30,375 nt of DNA from a virus. The notes under the pieces were generated by a model. It was not told the DNA's origin, did not search any database, and saw only the letters and a list, made by a program, of their open reading frames with translations. This document shows, in pieces, positions 9,180 to 26,123 of the stretch (the first letter of the stretch is position 1; every line of letters begins with the position of its first letter). The stretch spans positions 1-30,375 of the IMG/VR virus record IMGVR_UViG_3300043788_000147; one strand, written 5' to 3'. A program made the translations under genes and the position numbers.

Positions 9180-9226
9180 GGCCCCCTGTCTTTGGATCAC
9201 CGAATTTCAACCTGGAGGAAGGAAAA
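9180..9226 (+). repeat. Leader cassette type 2, copy a
   Basis: The 47-base intergenic leader runs CCCTGTCTTTGGATCACC, GAATTTCAACC, then TGGAGGAAGGAAAA before the ATG at 9227. It is nearly identical to 10115-10160. Confidence 0.75.
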
Positions 9227-10393: not shown

Positions 10394-10921
10394 ATGAAAA
10401 TGAACGAAATAGAACGCGAAACTATTACGGTTCTGGAATATTCGGAGCCGTGCGTGGGGCTTGCTTCGGAGGCGAAGGAAGTCTTGGGTTACAGCGTTTT
10501 GAGTCAGGCCATCTCGGAGCCAACCGAACACACCGCCTTAGAGATTGCGCTGGCTTCCTGTGGCATCGAAGTACTCAACGCCGAAGATGTCGCCACCTAT
10601 CAGCGAGAACTCTTGATTGAGCGTACTTCGGCAATGTTGCAGGAATGGCTGAAGAATCCCACCGGGACATTCATCGGCCCATCATGGGACAAGACGAAGA
10701 TCGAGCAGTATCGGGAGCCGATTCCTGAATTTGTGCTCAACAAGGCCATTCAGATCAAGAAGGCCATGCCGGAGGTCCGCATTTACATCCAGCATCTCAG
10801 CGAACATCCCGACCCGTTCTTGGTCGTCGCCACGAAGCACAAGAATTACGAGATTCTGGACGAGCAAGAGCTCTGGATTGAGGTTTGGGAAGAGCCGAAG
10901 TTCGAGGGGAGACTGCGATAG
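10394..10921 (+). CDS. Hypothetical protein, 175 residues
   Basis: The largest gene of the accessory operon, preceded by leader 3b with GGGAGGGG. Acidic, soluble alpha/beta protein: a helical N-terminal half (EPTEHTALEIALASCGIEVL) and a beta-rich C-terminal part (EVRIYIQHLSEHPDPFLVVA; ELWIEVWEEPKF). No catalytic motif, membrane segment or cysteine cluster. Function unknown. The 87 bases after it hold no convincing separate gene. Confidence 0.7.
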   Translation: MKMNEIERETITVLEYSEPCVGLASEAKEVLGYSVLSQAISEPTEHTALEIALASCGIEVLNAEDVATYQRELLIERTSAMLQEWLKNPTGTFIGPSWDKTKIEQYREPIPEFVLNKAIQIKKAMPEVRIYIQHLSEHPDPFLVVATKHKNYEILDEQELWIEVWEEPKFEGRLR

Positions 10922-11008
10922 AAAGCGAGGTGATTCCTATGAGGGCGGAACGGGAGCGGTTGCTAACCGAAAGCCGCCCGATTAGGAAGAATCTAGCGGA
11001 GGTAAACC

Positions 11009-11194
11009 ATGTCAGTCACTTGGGGATCAATGAAGCCGCAGCGCCCAACCCGCACCGATATCGAACTCTTGAACCTGCTCCGCCGCCGGCCGTGGGAGTC
11101 GCGCCACCGGTTGACGCTGGTGCGCGCCGCGGCGAATGCGATCCTGGGGAGCGCGGTGGTGTGGGGCATCATCTACTGGCTGTTAACTCACTAA
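11009..11194 (+). CDS. Small membrane protein, 61 residues
   Basis: GCGGAGG sits 7 bases before the ATG. A basic cytoplasmic-looking N-terminal part (RTDIELLNLLRRRPWESRHR) is followed by one C-terminal transmembrane helix (ANAILGSAVVWGIIYWLL). C-tail-anchored topology is inferred. Role unknown. Confidence 0.65.
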   Translation: MSVTWGSMKPQRPTRTDIELLNLLRRRPWESRHRLTLVRAAANAILGSAVVWGIIYWLLTH

Positions 11195-11208
11195 CGGAGG
11201 CAATCAAG

Positions 11209-11427
11209 ATGGGACGAACTCTCGAACCAGCACGACCAAACCGCTACCGGGCCAGCAACGAGCACAATCGCATCGCGCCTGCATGTGGGTGCGAGATCGG
11301 ACGCGACCAGAGCCCGCTCGGACACACACGTCCGCGCCAAGTGGGCCGGAAAGCAGGATTAACTGTGTATCAGCGCGAGCAACAGGCGGTCAGACGGGCG
11401 GCGAGGGCGCTTCGGCGGACGCTGTAG
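11209..11427 (+). CDS. Small basic hypothetical protein, 72 residues
   Basis: Start ATG 11209 follows CGGAGG; a much longer in-frame extension upstream would overlap two genes. Basic, Arg-rich sequence (TLEPARPNRYRASNEHNRIA, and a C-terminal RRAARALRRTL), perhaps nucleic-acid binding. Its 3' end overlaps the convergent minus-strand gene by 38 bases, marking the end of the accessory operon. Confidence 0.6.
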   Translation: MGRTLEPARPNRYRASNEHNRIAPACGCEIGRDQSPLGHTRPRQVGRKAGLTVYQREQQAVRRAARALRRTL

Positions 11428-12478
11428 AGGGATCTCTGTATCCTCGCGCAAAGTTAGACGTATGGGCCTGCTTACGCCTAACTTTGAACGGATCGTGACA
11501 GCCCGACCAATCGACGCCTAGTGGATACTTCTCGTTGATCTCATCCACGGTCTCGGTGGTGCGCTGCCCGAACGGGACATCCTCCATCACTCCGTCGCAC
11601 TCGCCGCAGGTGCAGAGTGAGGCGGGGTCGCTGAACTCCTTGGTAGGATCATTCTCGTGCGTCTCTGGATCAGGCTCGTTGGCAGGGGTCGGCGTGTCGC
11701 ATTCGCGGTAGAAGTCACCGGCGGTGGCCATCAGCCGATCGCCGTCGTTCCTCATCAGGACTCGCGCGGCGGTGTGTCCGCATACGTCGGTCAGCAATGA
11801 CTCCGTAGACGCGAACATCCACTTGAGCACGCGCATCGGGTCGATCTCGCGGTAGGGCTGAATCGACCATCCTACGCCGGCGATCTTGCGGAGTTGGTCA
11901 AGGGTATCGCGGTAGGGGAGCTGCGCTGCTTGGAGCACAAAGCGAACGCGGGAGTGTGTCGGGTGCGCCTCGAGCACGCGCCGGCGGACGTTCGACATCC
12001 CGCGGCGGCGGAACCATTGCGCCAGCGTGGCTGCTACCTTGCGAGCCTTCTTCATGTCGTCCTTTGGGCCAATGACCTCGACTCCGACTTGGCGCTCAGT
12101 ACGGACAATCGGCGCTCGTGTGCGGAGCCAGCAATGGAGCAGGTTGTGAGGCTGCCCGCAGTACATACAGATGAGCAGGTGGCAGGTGTGGCGGTGAGCC
12201 TTGGCGGCGTTCCCTTTCTTGCACTTTTTGTAGACGGAACCGTAGCGCCCGCAGTCGGCGAGGCGCTGCGCCGCGTTCTCGAACTCCCACGACTCGGCGA
12301 GCGTGACGACGGCTTCGCGAGTGTGCTTGCGCAAGGACTGGTAGCGTGGCGCGATCTGGCCGTGGATAACGGCGGTCAGGCGATCGGGCTCAGGGTTGAC
12401 GGTGAGTATCTCTTCGGTCAGGCGGGGGTCGTTGAGGTTGATGGTGGACGATGAAGGCGTAACGGCACTGGTTGTCAT
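11390..12478 (-). CDS. Zinc-finger protein, possible replication-initiator-like
   Basis: 362 residues with GGGAGAG upstream of the ATG. Residues about 75-115 are Cys/His-rich (CGRYGSVYKKCKK ... HTCHLLICMYCGQPHNLLHC), reminiscent of zinc knuckles before the catalytic domain of some rolling-circle Rep proteins. A basic helical region follows (AATLAQWFRRRGMSNVRRR), then AHPTHSRVRFVLQA, and a late CTCGECDG cluster (near 285-292). No intact HUH/Tyr catalytic pair was recognised. Residues 12-32 share the NDPRLT..E.LTVNP motif with the SSB-like protein at 19423. It is one of few minus-strand genes in the middle of the window, next to a DnaA-box region. A transcription regulator is an equally open alternative. 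Confidence 0.75.
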   Translation of the reverse strand: MTTSAVTPSSSTINLNDPRLTEEILTVNPEPDRLTAVIHGQIAPRYQSLRKHTREAVVTLAESWEFENAAQRLADCGRYGSVYKKCKKGNAAKAHRHTCHLLICMYCGQPHNLLHCWLRTRAPIVRTERQVGVEVIGPKDDMKKARKVAATLAQWFRRRGMSNVRRRVLEAHPTHSRVRFVLQAAQLPYRDTLDQLRKIAGVGWSIQPYREIDPMRVLKWMFASTESLLTDVCGHTAARVLMRNDGDRLMATAGDFYRECDTPTPANEPDPETHENDPTKEFSDPASLCTCGECDGVMEDVPFGQRTTETVDEINEKYPLGVDWSGCHDPFKVRRKQAHTSNFARGYRDPSTASAEAPSPPV

Positions 12479-19422: not shown

Positions 19423-20172
19423 ATGAGCAGCTTCGGCGATGTTACGTATGCTGACGCGCCTGCGGAAACCGCCGCAGCCTCGCCCAGCGATCCCACGACA
19501 ATCATTGATCCCAACGACCCTCGACTCACGTCGGAAACCTTGACCGTGAACCCGGACGCGGACGCGTATGCGATCCTCCCGCCGCTCCCCGACGGCAAGT
19601 GGCGCGCAAAGGCGAAGCAGGTTGACATCAAGGACGACAAGGGCCAGCAGCAACGGTACGCAGTGTTCAGCCGCGCCAAGATGGCCAACGGCGCGCCGTT
19701 CTTCGCCACCAACATCGAATACTCGATCATCGACCATTCCGGCGAGTTCGACGGGGTCAAGCTGACCGAATACTGGGTCAAGACGCTTGTCGATGCGCGC
19801 AAGGGCACGTCGCAGGCGGCGACCATGATCGGCAAGCTGGGGGGGAAGGTGCCGCCGAGTGGCAGCCAGAAGGCGTACATCGACGCGCTGCTGGCGACTC
19901 TCGCCGCCGAGCCGGAACTGATATTGGAGACTGCGTGGTCGGCAGAGTGCCAGCACTGCCAGGAGGTGGCGAAGAAGAAAGGTGACAAGGCGCCACGTCC
20001 GTTCCTGTCCGGGATGCACCGGTTCCCGGCGACCAAGACTCCAGGCGTCCACGACCCGATCGTCAAGTGCCCGACGTGCGCGAGTCAGGTCCGCGCGCAG
20101 GCCCGGCTGGTGGCTCCGTTCTCGCTGAGGGAGTCGCAGGCCACGCGAGGGACGGGGGCGGCGGGGAAGTAG
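19423..20172 (+). CDS. Putative SSB-like protein with zinc-finger insert
   Basis: 249 residues; AAAGGAG precedes the ATG. A disordered N-terminus contains the NDPRLT..E.LTVNP motif (residues 26-47) also found in the protein at 11390-12478. A beta-rich core (about 52-125: GKWRAKAKQVDIKDDKG, FFATNIEYSIIDHSG) and a helix (AYIDALLATLAAEPE) resemble DUF669/OB-type phage ssDNA-binding accessories. CQHC (near 183) and CPTC (near 221) form a probable zinc site. Pairing with the upstream Sak4-like ATPase supports ssDNA binding, but the OB fold is not proven and there is no DDDIPF tail here. Confidence 0.62.
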   Translation: MSSFGDVTYADAPAETAAASPSDPTTIIDPNDPRLTSETLTVNPDADAYAILPPLPDGKWRAKAKQVDIKDDKGQQQRYAVFSRAKMANGAPFFATNIEYSIIDHSGEFDGVKLTEYWVKTLVDARKGTSQAATMIGKLGGKVPPSGSQKAYIDALLATLAAEPELILETAWSAECQHCQEVAKKKGDKAPRPFLSGMHRFPATKTPGVHDPIVKCPTCASQVRAQARLVAPFSLRESQATRGTGAAGK

Positions 20173-20271
20173 CTGACTTCGGCGCCGACTTGGGATGGGG
20201 CGACGCTGGACGGGCGAGGGACAGCGGTTGATTCCGTACCCTCGCCCTTTGACATTCGACGGAGGTGGGCG

Positions 20272-20466
20272 ATGGCGATGGCGCTGAAGCTGGCGGAGAA
20301 GACGAACGAGGAATGGGTAGAGGATCGCGTGGCGGAAGCGGACCAGTCACAAGGCATGGTGTTCGCCTGTCAGGAAGCGCGGTGCGAACCGCTCCCGCCA
20401 CACGCGCACTCGGCGCGGCCGTATCTGGCGTGGAAGAATCCGTCGCTGACTGCGAGGAAGAGATGA
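20272..20466 (+). CDS. Small hypothetical protein, 64 residues
   Basis: ACGGAGG precedes the ATG; the stop overlaps the next ATG as ATGA. Helical acidic start (ALKLAEKTNEEWVEDRVAEA) and a Cys/His/Pro-containing end. The 99 bases before it hold no other feature. Function unknown. Confidence 0.58.
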   Translation: MAMALKLAEKTNEEWVEDRVAEADQSQGMVFACQEARCEPLPPHAHSARPYLAWKNPSLTARKR

Positions 20467-20645
20467 GATCAGTAACGATTACACGCGTCATCCCCGGAGA
20501 ATGGGACGTGACATCTAGTGGCGCTACGCCAAAGCACTTCACTGATTGGGATAATCTGGTCAGGTTCGTTAGTGGAGAGTTCGATGCTCAGACGACAGCT
20601 AACGAGAAGCTCGACGCTATCGCCAAGATCGTAGACAACTACTGA
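20463..20645 (+). CDS. Small hypothetical protein, 60 residues
   Basis: ATGA-coupled start at 20463; an upstream in-frame extension is Gly/Arg low-complexity and lies over the previous gene. Sequence RSVTITRVIPGEWDVTSSGA is beta-like, then a helix (NEKLDAIAKIVDNY). One base separates its TGA from the next ATG. Confidence 0.58.
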   Translation: MRSVTITRVIPGEWDVTSSGATPKHFTDWDNLVRFVSGEFDAQTTANEKLDAIAKIVDNY

Positions 20646-20646
20646 G

Positions 20647-20895
20647 ATGACCCTCATCGAGAAAGCCCTCGCCGCGGCGCGAGACAAGAAGCTGAAGCCC
20701 GTGTCGAAGACCATCGACGAGGAGATCGAACTGGCTCTGGCGTGGGCGGAGGGAAAAGTAACCTCCTATCAGGCGCGAGTGGCAATCGGTGTGGAAGAGT
20801 CCAACGGATACAGCAACCGATTATACAGCTTCATGGCTACTCGACTGAGAGAGGGATTACGGCGCAATGTGATCGTTCGCAGGAGAACCAAGTGA
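20647..20895 (+). CDS. Small HTH-like hypothetical protein, 82 residues
   Basis: Translationally linked to both neighbours (TGA-g-ATG before, TGATG after). LIEKALAAARDKKLKPVSK and EEIELALAWAEGKVTSYQAR resemble small phage proteins in which ELALAWA-x-G-(E/K)-(V/I) precedes a helix-turn-helix; the last part is basic (LREGLRRNVIVRRRTK). DNA binding is likely but unproven. It is directly upstream of the helicase. Confidence 0.65.
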   Translation: MTLIEKALAAARDKKLKPVSKTIDEEIELALAWAEGKVTSYQARVAIGVEESNGYSNRLYSFMATRLREGLRRNVIVRRRTK

Positions 20896-22280
20896 TGAGC
20901 TTCGACGCGTCCCCCGACCCGGCAGCCACCGCCGCCGACTCGCCCACCCCCGACAGCGGGAACGGGACTGACCACTCCGTTCCCGCGCCCGCCGAGGAAT
21001 CGACGGTGCCAGCGGAGCCGACGGTGCCGTGCGAGTTCACCTGCGGCGTGGCAGGCTCCGGCAAGACCTACGCATGGCGCGAGCGCATCGCCGCCTGCCC
21101 CTCCGACGGCATCCTCGCGGCCACGACCGGGATCGCGGCGGTGAACCTTGGCACGGTCACGCTGAATTCTTTGCTGTCCTTCTTCGACACCGACTCCCTC
21201 CGCGACGCCTACCTGAACGGGTCGCTCGTCCGTCGGCTCAAGTCCCTGCGCGAAGACTACCGGCGCCTCGTGATCGACGAGGTGTCGATGATGGACGGCG
21301 ATCAACTGTCGATCCTCGTCCGGGCGATGCTGGAGTGCAATTCGTTCCTGTCGCCGACGCACGCGCCTGCGATGGGGATCGCGCTGGTCGGAGACTTCGC
21401 CCAGCTACCGCCCGTGCGTGCCCGATGGGCCTTCGAGTCCGACGAATGGTGGCGGTTCGACGCCGCGACGACTCGGCTGACCAAGGTATGGCGCCAGGAC
21501 GCCGGGCCGTTCCTGAACGCGCTTAACCTGTGCCGATCTGGCTGCGGGGACGCCTCGTCGCAGGTGCTATCGCAGGAGGGGATGGAGTGGCATTCGGCGC
21601 TATCCATCGACTTCGACGGAACGACGATCGTCACTAAGAACGACGCGGTGGACCGATATAACGGGATGGCGCTGGACCGCCTGCCGGGACGCGCGTTCAC
21701 GCCGACGAATCGTCGCTGGGGCAAGGCACGCGGAGAGTGGAAGCAGATCCCGGATCGCGTGACGCTGAAGCCGGGATGCTACGTTATGTTGCTGTCGAAT
21801 CGGTATGACGAGGACAAGAATCTGATCTACGCCAATGGCGATTGCGCTTATGTGATCGGCTTGCAGCCCGGAGGCTCGTTCCTTGACGTTAAGCTGGTGC
21901 GCAACGACCGCGTAGTCAGCGTTCCCCGCGTGATCCGCGACGTGGGCCGCAAGGACAAGCCGGACGGCTGGGACCGGACGACTGGACACGGTGAGTGGCT
22001 CCCGCGGCCACACTGGCTCTCGGACAAGCGGAGGTATGTGGAGGGACAACTAGAATTTTTCCCAATTCGTTTGGCCTACGCATCTACTGTACATAAAAGT
22101 CAAGGGTTGTCTCTAGATCGTCTTCAGATAGATATACGAGATCATTTCTTTTCGTCTCCTGCAATGCAATACGTGGCCCTCTCTAGAGCAAGAACTATGG
22201 GGGGTTTGAGAATAGTGGGTCAGCGCGAGAGATTCATACGCAACTGCAATATTGACGAACGAGTTAGACCTTGGCTGTAG
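20895..22280 (+). CDS. Pif1/RecD-like SF1 helicase with replaced 3' end
   Basis: 461 residues from ATG 20895, which overlaps the upstream stop (TGATG). A Pro/Ala-rich N-terminal 45 residues precede helicase motifs: GVAGSGKT (51-58), VIDEVSMMD (126-134), VGDFAQLPP (165-173), STVHKSQG (397-404) and YVALSRAR (426-433). It should unwind DNA 5' to 3' in phage replication or recombination by family precedent. From about 22050 the DNA changes to lower GC and AGA/TTG/ATA codons, and the last 21 codons have a diverged second copy at 22859-22924, beyond the HNH gene. The 3' end thus seems to have been swapped when the HNH gene arrived; the protein is intact. Confidence 0.85.
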   Translation: MSFDASPDPAATAADSPTPDSGNGTDHSVPAPAEESTVPAEPTVPCEFTCGVAGSGKTYAWRERIAACPSDGILAATTGIAAVNLGTVTLNSLLSFFDTDSLRDAYLNGSLVRRLKSLREDYRRLVIDEVSMMDGDQLSILVRAMLECNSFLSPTHAPAMGIALVGDFAQLPPVRARWAFESDEWWRFDAATTRLTKVWRQDAGPFLNALNLCRSGCGDASSQVLSQEGMEWHSALSIDFDGTTIVTKNDAVDRYNGMALDRLPGRAFTPTNRRWGKARGEWKQIPDRVTLKPGCYVMLLSNRYDEDKNLIYANGDCAYVIGLQPGGSFLDVKLVRNDRVVSVPRVIRDVGRKDKPDGWDRTTGHGEWLPRPHWLSDKRRYVEGQLEFFPIRLAYASTVHKSQGLSLDRLQIDIRDHFFSSPAMQYVALSRARTMGGLRIVGQRERFIRNCNIDERVRPWL

Positions 22281-22293
22281 GTGGAGGTTACAA

Positions 22294-22857
22294 ATGTCTA
22301 AGTTTATAGATATGACGGGCAGGCGATTTGGGAAACTGGTTGTTTTGTGTAGGTCCATAAGGCCCTCTAACGGCGGACATACTTATTGGGAATGCTTGTG
22401 TGATTGCGGCACCACGAAGACGATCAGTAGAAAACACTTACGAAGTGGAGGCACTAAAAGTTGTGGCTGTGTTAGGCGAGCGCGTGGGCCTCATCGTGGT
22501 TCTTGGCGTCATGGCATGAACAATACTCCAGAATATGAGGCTTATTATTCTGCTCGAAATCGTTGCAACAGCACCAACGCCACTAAGTACTTGTCATATG
22601 GTGGACGTGGAATAAAGTTTAAGTTTGTGGCTTTTGATGAATTTTTTAGAGCGGTTGGGCCTCGTCCATCGCCACAACACTCACTCGATCGTATAGACAA
22701 CAACGGTAACTATGAGGTAGGCAACGTTCGTTGGTCTACTTACAGCACGCAGCGAATTAACTCGCGTGTTCGACGAAGTATTGAAAACTTTTCGGATGTG
22801 GTGTTGTTGGCTGAGATTTATCGACGCACTCCTGAATATGGATTAGAGGGGTGCTGA
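22294..22857 (+). mobile_element. Free-standing HNH homing endonuclease gene
   Basis: 187 residues from ATG 22294 with GTGGAGG upstream. The N-terminus MTGRRFGKLVVL (7-18) and the Cys module WECLCDCG...KSCGC (32-59) are the DNA-reading parts seen in many phage HNH homing enzymes. The catalytic stretch is HSLDRIDNNGNYEVGNVRW (129-147), containing the H-N-N signature. Codons are AT-rich compared with the surrounding replication genes. It lies between the helicase end and a leftover copy of that end, so it is a mobile gene that likely cuts helicase alleles lacking it. It carries no intron or intein signature. Confidence 0.88.
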
Positions 22858-22858
22858 C

Positions 22859-22924
22859 GTGGGGCAACGGGAGAGGTATGTGAAGAATTGCACGATTGAT
22901 CCGAGAGTTCGACCTTGGTTGTAG
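22859..22924 (+). pseudogene. Remnant of the original helicase 3' end
   Basis: Translation gives VGQRERYVKNCTIDPRVRPW plus Leu and stop, 16 of 21 residues identical to the helicase C-terminus (22215-22280), with 45 of 66 bases identical. It begins one base after the HNH stop and has no start codon of its own. It is best explained as the displaced native end of the helicase gene. Confidence 0.8.
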
Positions 22925-22933
22925 GAGGCACTT

Positions 22934-23218
22934 ATGATTACCGTCAGGTTCCCGAGTGGATTCTCAGTGCAATACAACTCGCTCTGTGCCATGAAGTGGG
23001 ACAACAGTAGTAATGGAATGGTTCTCTACGCGTCTGTTGCGGATCGGGATGCGGGCAAAGGATGGGTGGTCCACGTCCCTGCTGACTGCATAGTGGAGTT
23101 CATTAGCCCGTGCCGGACCTATGACGCCAAGGTTGAGGACAACAAGTTTCACGCCATTCAGGCCGAAATACGCAAGCTGAAGAACGCCGTCAATCGGATC
23201 GCACGCAATGCGAAGTAA
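22934..23218 (+). CDS. Hypothetical protein, 94 residues
   Basis: GTAGGAGG precedes the ATG; the 3' end overlaps the polymerase start by 11 bases. A beta-rich front (MITVRFPSGFSVQYNSL; GWVVHVPADCIVEFISP) is followed by a charged helix (KFHAIQAEIRKLKNAVNRIA) that may form a coiled coil. Its location between helicase and polymerase suggests a replication accessory role (inference). Confidence 0.66.
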   Translation: MITVRFPSGFSVQYNSLCAMKWDNSSNGMVLYASVADRDAGKGWVVHVPADCIVEFISPCRTYDAKVEDNKFHAIQAEIRKLKNAVNRIARNAK

Positions 23219-26123
23219 GCCACCTAGTTGCGAAGGTTGCCCTTGCCACTCCCACGGCACCGACTTTTCCCGCGTCGAGGGCACGGGCTCGCTTGGCGTG
23301 CTCGTGGTAGCAGAGGCGTCCGGCGAAATGGAAGCGCGGGATCAACTCCCCCTGCGTCCGTACGCGCCTGCTGGCTCGCTGCTGGAGCGGACGTTCAAGC
23401 GGATGGGGTACTCGCGCCAGCAGTTCTCGCTGACGAACACTCTGCGTTGCCGCCCGCGCAACAACTGGCTTTCTGGTTCTCCGTACGAATGGTCCGCGCT
23501 CAACGCCTGCCGCCCGAACTTGGACGCGGCGATACGAGAGAGGAGGCCGAGGGCGATCCTGACGCTGGGAGACACGGCGCTGCGAGAGCTGACGGGGGAG
23601 GCGGGGGAGCAGCGGGGCGTGAGTCACCTGTGTGGGTACGTGCTACCTAGTTGCCTGTTGCGGACGCCGCTAATGAAGCCGTGTGAATGCGTAAAGGACA
23701 CGGGAGCCATAGACCCGAAGTGCTTCCTGTGCGACGGCGTTGGTGAGTTGAATTACGGTACGATGCCGGACCAGCAGCCTATCCCGGTCATCCCCGCCTA
23801 CCATCCAGCCTTCATCCGCCGCGGCAAGGCGGCGTACCAGGGATTCTTCGCCCGCAACCTCCAACGCGCGGTGAACGTCGCGGCGGGCAAGGATCGAGAA
23901 TGGATCTGGGGGATCGACCCGGAACGGAAGGAGACGTATGCGACGCTCGACTACCAAATCCATCCAAGTCTCGAGGAGGCTTGGGCGTTTGCTCAACGAG
24001 TTAGAGATAACTCAAACCTTGTTGTCAGCTACGATATCGAAACTTTCGAGTCAGCCTCACTCGATGAAGACGCACGAGATGGATTCACGGATACTCGAAT
24101 ACGGCTTATACAATTCTCGGTTGAGGGAATGCATGCAATTGCCTTGCCTTGGGAATCTGGGTACCGATTGGCGGCACAAGCTATCCTCCAATCCCCTAAC
24201 GTCAAATGCGGCCACAACCTCTGGCTCTTCGACAACCGCGTCCTCGAAGCCTGCGGAGCCCGCGAGGGACTCGACCTGACCCCACGCGGCGTCATCCACG
24301 ACACTCTCCAGATGTTCCACCACTGGCAACCGGACCTCCCGGCGCACCTCCAGTTCTGCGCTCAGTTCGTCCAGTTCCCGTTCCCGTGGAAGCACCTGGC
24401 GGCGACGAATCTCGAATTCTATGGCTGCGTGGACGTGGACGCGACGCTGCGGCTGTATACGTTCCTGCGATCGGCACTGGAGAAGGACGGCATTTGGGAC
24501 TCGCCGTACGACGCCTCCGGCGATTGCGTCGGCGGATACGTGGGCCAGGTCGCGCAGGTGAGGCCGATCCTGGCCGCGATGGAGAGGCGGGGGCTGCCCG
24601 TCGATGACGCCGAGCGCCTCCGCCTGAAGGAAGAGTTCAAGTTGGCCGCGTCCGAGTTGGCACAGGAACTCATGCCACGATTTCCTGAATCGGCGAAGAA
24701 ACTGGATCCGTATAAGACGTTCCCGCCGGAGCTGAAGAAACTCCCCGAGTCCGATTGGGGCCAACTCTTCCGCGAGCCTGACAAGATCGACAAGAAGACA
24801 GGTCGGCTCAAGGCGGGCAAATGGTATCGCTACGGGCAGCGGGAAGTCCCTGAAGCGACGGAGGTGGACGGTCAGCCCGTTACGAAGATGGTGCTTCGCT
24901 GGTGCTATATCCCTGAGTTCAACCCGAACTCCGGCAAGCAACTCATCGAATACATGAAGGCGAAGAAGCACAAAGTCCCGAAGTCCAAGGCGACGGACGA
25001 AGAAGGCAACGAGAAGGATACGACGAACAAGAAGGAGTTGGAGCGGCTGGCGCGGCGCACAGGCGACAACTTCTACCTGAAGACGATCGAGTTCCGAGAG
25101 CTGACGAAGATGGAGGGAACCTACGTCGATGGATTCGCGCCACACGCGGACGGCCGCGTGCATACCACCTTCACGTTCGATACTGGCATCGGACAGCTAT
25201 CCAGCCGCAACCCCAACATCCAGAATTATCCGAAGCATGGGCGATTGGCCAAGGCGGTACGCAAGATGATCGCGGCTCCTCCGGGGCACCTGCTCGTTGA
25301 GTGGGATTATAAGTCCTGCCACGTCCTGACGCTCGGCTTCCTCGCCGAAGATCCTGACTACATCCGCGCCGCACGCATCGACATGCACTCAATCGTCACC
25401 GGGCATCGGCTCAAACTGTGGACGGTAGCGGAACTCCTGACTCACGACGATGCTTACATTAAGGCCAAGTGTAGATGGCTGAAGTCCAATCCCGAGTGGA
25501 AGCACATCCGAGACGCCCGCATGAAGCACGCTATCCTCGGCATCGGCAACGGGCTCAAGGCACGCGGGCTCTACGAGAAGCACATGGAGGACTTCTCCGG
25601 TGTCAAGGAGGCACAACAGTTCCTCGACGTAGTCTACGAACTGTTCCCACGCGTGTTCGAGTGGCACGACATCGTACAGAAGCGGGCGCATGAGCAGCAG
25701 TTCCAGCGGACCCAGTACGGCCACATGCGACGGTTCTACGAAGTGTTTCGATGGGACTATAAGAAGGCCGCGTACTCGCACGGCGACCAGGCGGAGGAAG
25801 CGATCTCCTATCACCTCTCGAACATCGCGTTCGGCTACATCCGCGAGCACATGAAGCTGCTGGAACGGGCTGGGCTGAACGCCAAGTACGGCTTGTGCAA
25901 CAACGTTCACGATTCGCTGCTGTTCCACTTCCCCGCGTCGATGCTGGAGGAGCACGTGGCTGAAGTGTATCCGTTGCTGATCCAGCCATCGGCGGTGCTG
26001 CGCCATCCGACGATCTGTCCCGACGGATTGTGGATCGACGCCGAGTGCAACGCCGGACCAGATTGGAGTAGCATGACTGAGATCAACGTGAAGGAGGCTA
26101 CATGTCAGACGACGAACCAGTGA
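23208..26123 (+). CDS. Fused UDG-like, 3'-5' exonuclease and PolA-type DNA polymerase
   Basis: 971 residues. Residues 1-240 resemble family 4 uracil-DNA glycosylases: C8/C11/C13, AEASGEMEA (35-43), NTLRCRP (77-83), AYHPAF (197-202), with an extra Cys module (C159, C161, C172, C175). Residues 250-430 are a DEDDy exonuclease: YDIETF (D276, E278), GHNLWLFD (N337, D342) and YGCVD (Y405, D409). Residues 450-960 are family A polymerase: motif A EWDYKSCH (D700, His705 where Glu is usual), motif B RDARMKHAILGIGNG (K773, Leu777 at the E. coli Phe762 position) and motif C VHDS (D902, Ser903 where Glu is usual). It is the probable phage replicase. A lower-GC patch covers about 23940-24190. Confidence 0.88.
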   Translation: MRSKPPSCEGCPCHSHGTDFSRVEGTGSLGVLVVAEASGEMEARDQLPLRPYAPAGSLLERTFKRMGYSRQQFSLTNTLRCRPRNNWLSGSPYEWSALNACRPNLDAAIRERRPRAILTLGDTALRELTGEAGEQRGVSHLCGYVLPSCLLRTPLMKPCECVKDTGAIDPKCFLCDGVGELNYGTMPDQQPIPVIPAYHPAFIRRGKAAYQGFFARNLQRAVNVAAGKDREWIWGIDPERKETYATLDYQIHPSLEEAWAFAQRVRDNSNLVVSYDIETFESASLDEDARDGFTDTRIRLIQFSVEGMHAIALPWESGYRLAAQAILQSPNVKCGHNLWLFDNRVLEACGAREGLDLTPRGVIHDTLQMFHHWQPDLPAHLQFCAQFVQFPFPWKHLAATNLEFYGCVDVDATLRLYTFLRSALEKDGIWDSPYDASGDCVGGYVGQVAQVRPILAAMERRGLPVDDAERLRLKEEFKLAASELAQELMPRFPESAKKLDPYKTFPPELKKLPESDWGQLFREPDKIDKKTGRLKAGKWYRYGQREVPEATEVDGQPVTKMVLRWCYIPEFNPNSGKQLIEYMKAKKHKVPKSKATDEEGNEKDTTNKKELERLARRTGDNFYLKTIEFRELTKMEGTYVDGFAPHADGRVHTTFTFDTGIGQLSSRNPNIQNYPKHGRLAKAVRKMIAAPPGHLLVEWDYKSCHVLTLGFLAEDPDYIRAARIDMHSIVTGHRLKLWTVAELLTHDDAYIKAKCRWLKSNPEWKHIRDARMKHAILGIGNGLKARGLYEKHMEDFSGVKEAQQFLDVVYELFPRVFEWHDIVQKRAHEQQFQRTQYGHMRRFYEVFRWDYKKAAYSHGDQAEEAISYHLSNIAFGYIREHMKLLERAGLNAKYGLCNNVHDSLLFHFPASMLEEHVAEVYPLLIQPSAVLRHPTICPDGLWIDAECNAGPDWSSMTEINVKEATCQTTNQ

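Follow-up and report, generated by a model that had tools for sequence, protein, structure and literature searches.

We analysed a stretch of phage DNA of 30,375 nucleotides (IMG/VR virus record IMGVR_UViG_3300043788_000147, positions 1 to 30,375), referred to here as the window. On its plus strand, a helicase gene is followed by a free-standing HNH gene and then by a second copy of the helicase C-terminus. The locus contains the following features:

20895-22280, plus strand: helicase P0001 (Dda/PIF1-like), 461 aa; phrog_325, E 3e-55
20895..22043, plus strand: GC-rich helicase body with Walker A/B, assigned from phrog_325, a GC3 of 0.84 and identity to eight relatives
22044..22214, plus strand: low-GC stretch with the helicase motifs STVHKSQG and VALSRAR, 5' of the duplicated part; left limit from the change-point at 22044
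22215..22280, plus strand: recoded helicase C-terminus, 21 codons and a stop, carried with the HNH gene; 45/66 nt and 16/21 aa against the downstream copy
22294..22857, plus strand: free-standing HNH endonuclease P0002, 187 aa; phrog_374, E 1e-50
22846..22851, plus strand: GAGGGG, Shine-Dalgarno (SD)-like, seven bases 5' of the remnant GTG; read from the sequence
22859..22924, plus strand: leftover helicase C-terminus VGQRERYVKNCTIDPRVRPWL and a stop, with a possible GTG start; tblastn E 1e-6
22922..22928, plus strand: AGGAGG, SD-like for the ORF 22934-23218 and overlapped by the remnant stop; read from the sequence

The helicase frame is intact, and its residues 45-383 share 71-80% identity with eight relatives. 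Its GC3 is 0.844 over 20895-22049 and 0.368 from there to the gene end, in agreement with an earlier note that had placed a change of character at about 22050. The best single GC3 change-point falls at 22044 (2-log-unit interval 22029-22047), with a log-likelihood ratio of 37.2; none of 300 permutations exceeded 7.7. In the relatives' helicases (n=8), the last 76 codons have a GC3 of 0.51-0.79. The HNH gene is likewise intact, starts at ATG 22294, 13 bases 3' of the helicase stop, and has a GC3 of 0.42, low like that of the helicase tail. Downstream of the element GC3 rises slowly, to 0.68 in the ORF 22934-23218 and 0.77 in the polymerase gene. As composition recovers gradually on this side, the right border of the putative import is taken from the repeat and not from composition. 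For the proposed single transferred unit of about 800 bases, the left break stands at 22044; its right border is not marked by a comparable shift. The polymerase itself (DNA polymerase A, window 23208-26123) has an N-terminal uracil-DNA glycosylase domain (PF03167 + PF00476).

Alignment of the two C-terminal copies (22215-22280 and 22859-22924) bore out the reading of the downstream segment as a second helicase end, with 16 of 21 residues identical (17 of 22 including the stop) but only 45 of 66 bases; nine codons differ synonymously and five nonsynonymously. The near copy is in frame with the helicase body, and its DNA has diverged more than its protein. Within the 30 kb, the second C-terminus is by far the strongest second match (scores of 119 and 98 for the two copies, 30 for the next). 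The endonuclease frame therefore lies between two copies of one gene end, the remnant beginning one base 3' of the HNH stop codon. This remnant had been said to lack any start, which is not strictly true: its first codon is GTG, and together with the GAGGGG upstream it could give a peptide of at most 21 aa. It does not belong to a longer gene, as its stop at 22924 precedes the next ORF at 22934. Several relatives have an ATGA overlap between the helicase stop and the start of the following gene, so the helicase end may matter for translation of the gene that follows, and the end retained in the window may do the same.

P0002 carries a Cys4-type N-terminal motif and a HSLDRIDNNGNYEVGN core, and it retains the conserved motif residues and invariant columns of the HNH family; its model contains a beta-beta-alpha element (pLDDT 85). 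The protein has no match in Pfam and no significant match in the PDB, either by sequence or by fold search of the model, so the enzyme assignment rests on PHROGs and the conserved motif residues. Its catalytic motif and its place in a phage endonuclease family (phrog_374) point to a homing endonuclease. Relatives of P0002 occur in 972 phage records, the nearest being about 50% identical, and most relatives of this phrog_374 type stand without a duplicated gene end. A second allele bearing the same element was not found among them, so mobility of the window copy was not observed.

HNH genes are common in phage introns, and the locus could be read as a group I intron (or an intein) with an HNH gene, in which 22859-22924 would be the true last exon: excision of 22215-22858 joins codon 440 to the downstream end in frame. 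Yet the HNH frame takes up all but about 80 of these 644 bases, and 66 of the 80 are the helicase end with its stop, leaving no space for an intron core. Rfam gave no match, and hence no intron family, over 20000-24500 at E<=1, and no intron match at gathering thresholds in the window and four related loci. An intein is contradicted by the HNH gene having its own start and stop and by the host stop, which ends at 22280. We therefore agree with the earlier note that the element is neither intron nor intein, and regard splicing as highly improbable.

Eight IMG/VR phages without the HNH gene encode helicases about 70-77% identical to that of the window. Each has a single C-terminus, and a downstream copy in HNH-free relatives, which the earlier note had named as part of a refuting finding, occurs in 0/8. 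In one of them (L101) the polymerase start follows directly on the helicase stop, with no gene between; in other relatives the helicase-polymerase junction is a hot spot for inserted genes, including some that are not homing endonuclease genes (HEGs). In a comparison over 63 bases, the upstream copy is nearest to L165 and L119 (50/63 and 49/63) and the downstream copy to L103 (47/63), with the two copies of the window matching each other at 42/63. Each copy thus has a closer counterpart in a relative, a different one for each, than in its tandem partner. This speaks against duplication in place, a scenario in which the helicase 3' end was duplicated locally, the HNH gene then inserted between the copies and divergence followed. 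The copies do lie in tandem, both open, as local duplication predicts. The break at 22044, however, is 171 bases 5' of the duplicated part, and we disfavour this scenario as very unlikely. Which end is the resident one is not settled by distance alone, as the helicase body is about equally near to both lineages (0.79-0.80 to L003, which is L103, and to L004/L007, which are L165/L119); a test of body against tail protein distances gave a weak discordance signal over a short tail. Composition favours the upstream tail as the imported one.

To see how widespread this anatomy is, HNH genes of the P0002 family were scored for encoding the same peptide on both sides, using 400-base flanks at 94 loci and 752 swapped-flank pairs as a control. 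The window scored 98 (n=752 swapped pairs, maximum 54), through the shared helicase-end peptide; L071 and L233 each scored 97 and L090 scored 64. In an enlarged set with longer flanks and 193 non-identical HNH loci, flank duplication proved rare in the family, with three clear cases and one weak one (L090). High flank scores at L347, L343, L353, L355 and L298 were judged by eye to reflect repeated modules of the HNH proteins and not host genes; the highest swapped-flank scores in the enlarged set are also the HNH proteins' own modules. Homologue scans with the HNH proteins of L005 and L104 returned almost no relatives.

The two other clear cases are mirror images of the window. In the IMG/VR contig L071, the HNH gene is flanked upstream by a gene's old 5' end and downstream by a recoded one; the ends share 18/20 residues and 43/60 bases, differ at 13 synonymous versus 2 nonsynonymous codons, and the gene has a GC3 of 0.39 for its first 41 codons and 0.79 after. 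L233 is a cultured jumbo phage, Xanthomonas phage LucasX (MW825358). Here the recoded start of the macrodomain gene LUCX_97 overlaps the stop of the HNH gene (LUCX_96), the old start lies ~930 bases upstream, and the 5' ends differ at 12 synonymous and 5 nonsynonymous codons; this gene has no significant composition break. At L090 (3835-5033), the weaker case, a C-terminal peptide is duplicated on the minus strand (14/26 residues) with the HNH gene on the plus strand, so that the enzyme gene may also sit in the opposite orientation. These loci bear on a further explanation, namely that the window is an assembly chimera of two phages in one sample, which a metagenomic contig with a sharp composition break might suggest. 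Such a chimera implies two separate joins in a span of 900 bases, of which the right one lacks shared sequence, and together they would have to restore the full helicase frame; moreover, the same anatomy recurs in other assemblies and in cultured LucasX; we find it barely credible.

Close relatives of the window phage have the same anatomy with other enzymes. In L104, a RecA-like (Sak4-type) gene is interrupted at the P-loop: its old start reads in frame into a NUMOD4/HNH_3 gene, and downstream of that gene the RecA-like frame begins anew with recoded codons (GC3 0.11 over nine codons, then 0.82). In L167, the old helicase N-terminus breaks off at AGS|GKT in an in-frame fusion with a LAGLIDADG gene, and the new helicase start further downstream has a GC3 of 0.43 for 74 codons and 0.82 thereafter (likelihood ratio 21.6 against 10.3). 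These two P-loop insertions, fused in frame to the displaced old start, suggest that the endonuclease borrows the start codon of the host gene. L167 also has an HNH gene, followed by a Lar-like gene, between the polymerase 3' end and a second polymerase C-terminus (10690-11642; 20/31 residues). The Lar-like gene belongs to the restriction-alleviation family PF14354 (E 2e-12) and is possibly cargo of a homing element. In L128, a LAGLIDADG-like gene lies between two polymerase 5' ends; its protein has no Pfam match and belongs to phrog_5046, in common with the LAGLIDADG protein of L167. Neither the L167 polymerase nor the L128 case has a significant composition break. A scan of the window together with nine phage records gave 23 same-strand peptide pairs of >=32 bits and 0 opposite-strand pairs; ordinary repeats or paralogues make up several of these 23. 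The occurrence of the same anatomy, 3' and 5', in independent loci marks a recurrent pattern and not a one-off.

Other repeats were set aside. Low-complexity sequence, paralogues or DNA repeats account for many of the same-strand duplications at the helicase loci, and the window repeat at 9185/10118 was rejected as a further gene-end duplication, being a noncoding leader repeat before small ORFs. The window has two such leader repeats, 9183-9227/10116-10160 (45 bases, 96%) and 9881-9907/10351-10377 (27 bases, identical); they share GGATCAC(NN)AATTYAA (3 exact matches, 0 in 100 shuffles) and look start-associated.

The most serious competitor is plain mosaic recombination, in which a segment from a low-GC relative, comprising a helicase tail and a neighbouring HNH gene as passenger, replaced the resident one and an imprecise crossover left the old end behind. 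The composition break is equally compatible with such ordinary exchange, and so is the variable helicase-polymerase junction of the relatives, where genes other than HEGs have inserted too. L006 (5305-6362) shares its contig with L104; there, a PAPS-reductase-like gene (phrog_424) separates the helicase from a polymerase-start remnant, MRQKPSSCD, so that a gene start is duplicated with no endonuclease gene. The remnant has a 16-base match to the window helicase end that is maybe a recombination joint and possibly chance, and we give this match no weight. Against mosaic recombination, duplicated ends adjoin several endonuclease types at no fewer than five (>=5) unrelated genes, a cultured jumbo phage included, and the recoding at these ends is often mostly synonymous. 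We judge it unlikely.

We therefore favour, as probable, a non-splicing homing cassette made of the HNH endonuclease gene and a recoded end of the gene that it invades. The earlier note had seen a unit that replaces a gene end and keeps the helicase whole, and this gains support from the duplicated end, its absence in the eight relatives and the independent 3' and 5' cases. As we picture it, the HNH enzyme would cut element-free helicase alleles near codon 441 (VGQRER). The cassette would enter at that codon, its incoming end completing the helicase so that the gene is never broken, and the resident 21-codon end would be displaced 3' of the HNH gene. The cassette probably came in through double-strand-break repair templated by a low-GC donor phage, and ~170 bp of the helicase on the upstream side (22044-22214) would have been co-converted in the process. 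This 171-base low-GC stretch reads as a co-conversion tract from the donor, in line with the co-conversion known in phage homing (PMC2988022). Recoding would remove the enzyme's own target, so that the carrier allele escapes further cutting.

Elements of this kind have precedents in fungal mitochondria. In the available text of PMC3630166, which cites Paquin 1994, Allomyces macrogynus atp6 has a mobile endonuclease ORF with a foreign C-terminus, and in Glomus sp. atp6, atp9, cox2 and nad3 an endonuclease ORF brings a new C-terminus and the old end is left downstream; between the two atp6 ends of Glomus, identity is 63.5% at the DNA level and 91% at the protein level, and the transcript of the gene includes the foreign end. 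Phlebia and Endoconidiophora are reported to have comparable alternative or duplicated ends (PMC4019555, PMC6279837). The window shares with Allomyces and Glomus the endonuclease ORF at a gene's 3' end that supplies a new C-terminus, with the old end downstream; the enzymes there are LAGLIDADG or GIY-YIG and not HNH. Unlike in the phage cases, a 5'-end version is not described for the fungal elements in the same text.

Among phages, T4 SegF, SegG and Mob home without introns by break repair with flanking co-conversion (PMC2988022). They resemble the window element as free-standing phage HEGs with essential-gene targets, homing being presumed for the window, but they lie near the target gene, and their cut site can be away from the insertion site. 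The free-standing HEGs mobE in Aeh1 nrdA and mobA in T4 gene 60 lie inside critical coding sequence (PMC2988022), as does the window's, with no splicing element; in those cases the host gene is left as two separate coding parts, whereas in the window the gene end is re-supplied. Phage HEG islands, with nuclease genes at exchange boundaries (PMC10448857), are alike in placing HEGs at recombination borders near essential genes. Term searches of the available text found no mention of gene-end duplication in the T4 mobile-element review (PMC2988022) or in the phage HEG survey (PMC10448857), and the open-access literature yielded no phage precedent for a gene-end-replacing HEG (subscription papers and preprints lay outside this scope). 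With fungal precedents known and no phage case found, the kind is known; the version found in phages with an HNH enzyme seems not to have been described before, nor does the 5' mirror form. Somewhat more tentatively than for the window itself, we lean towards the view that non-splicing homing cassettes form a general class in phages, entering conserved coding sequence at either gene end and used by HNH and LAGLIDADG enzymes, the 3' form carrying a recoded C-terminus and the 5' form a recoded N-terminus that can leave the enzyme fused to the displaced old start.

The usual picture of HEGs has them entering conserved coding sites chiefly within introns or inteins, or else lying between genes. 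The cassette proposed here would be a further splicing-free solution in phages, in which the endonuclease carries the end of the gene it breaks, so that HEGs can lodge in essential coding sequence without splicing. It would account for gene ends that are oddly duplicated, for sudden shifts of codon use within phage core genes and for some of the fused starts of endonuclease genes, and core-gene phylogenies could be misled by it. As the recoded end is directly comparable with the element-free ends of close relatives, the locus would also offer a simple test of carrier protection by recoding.
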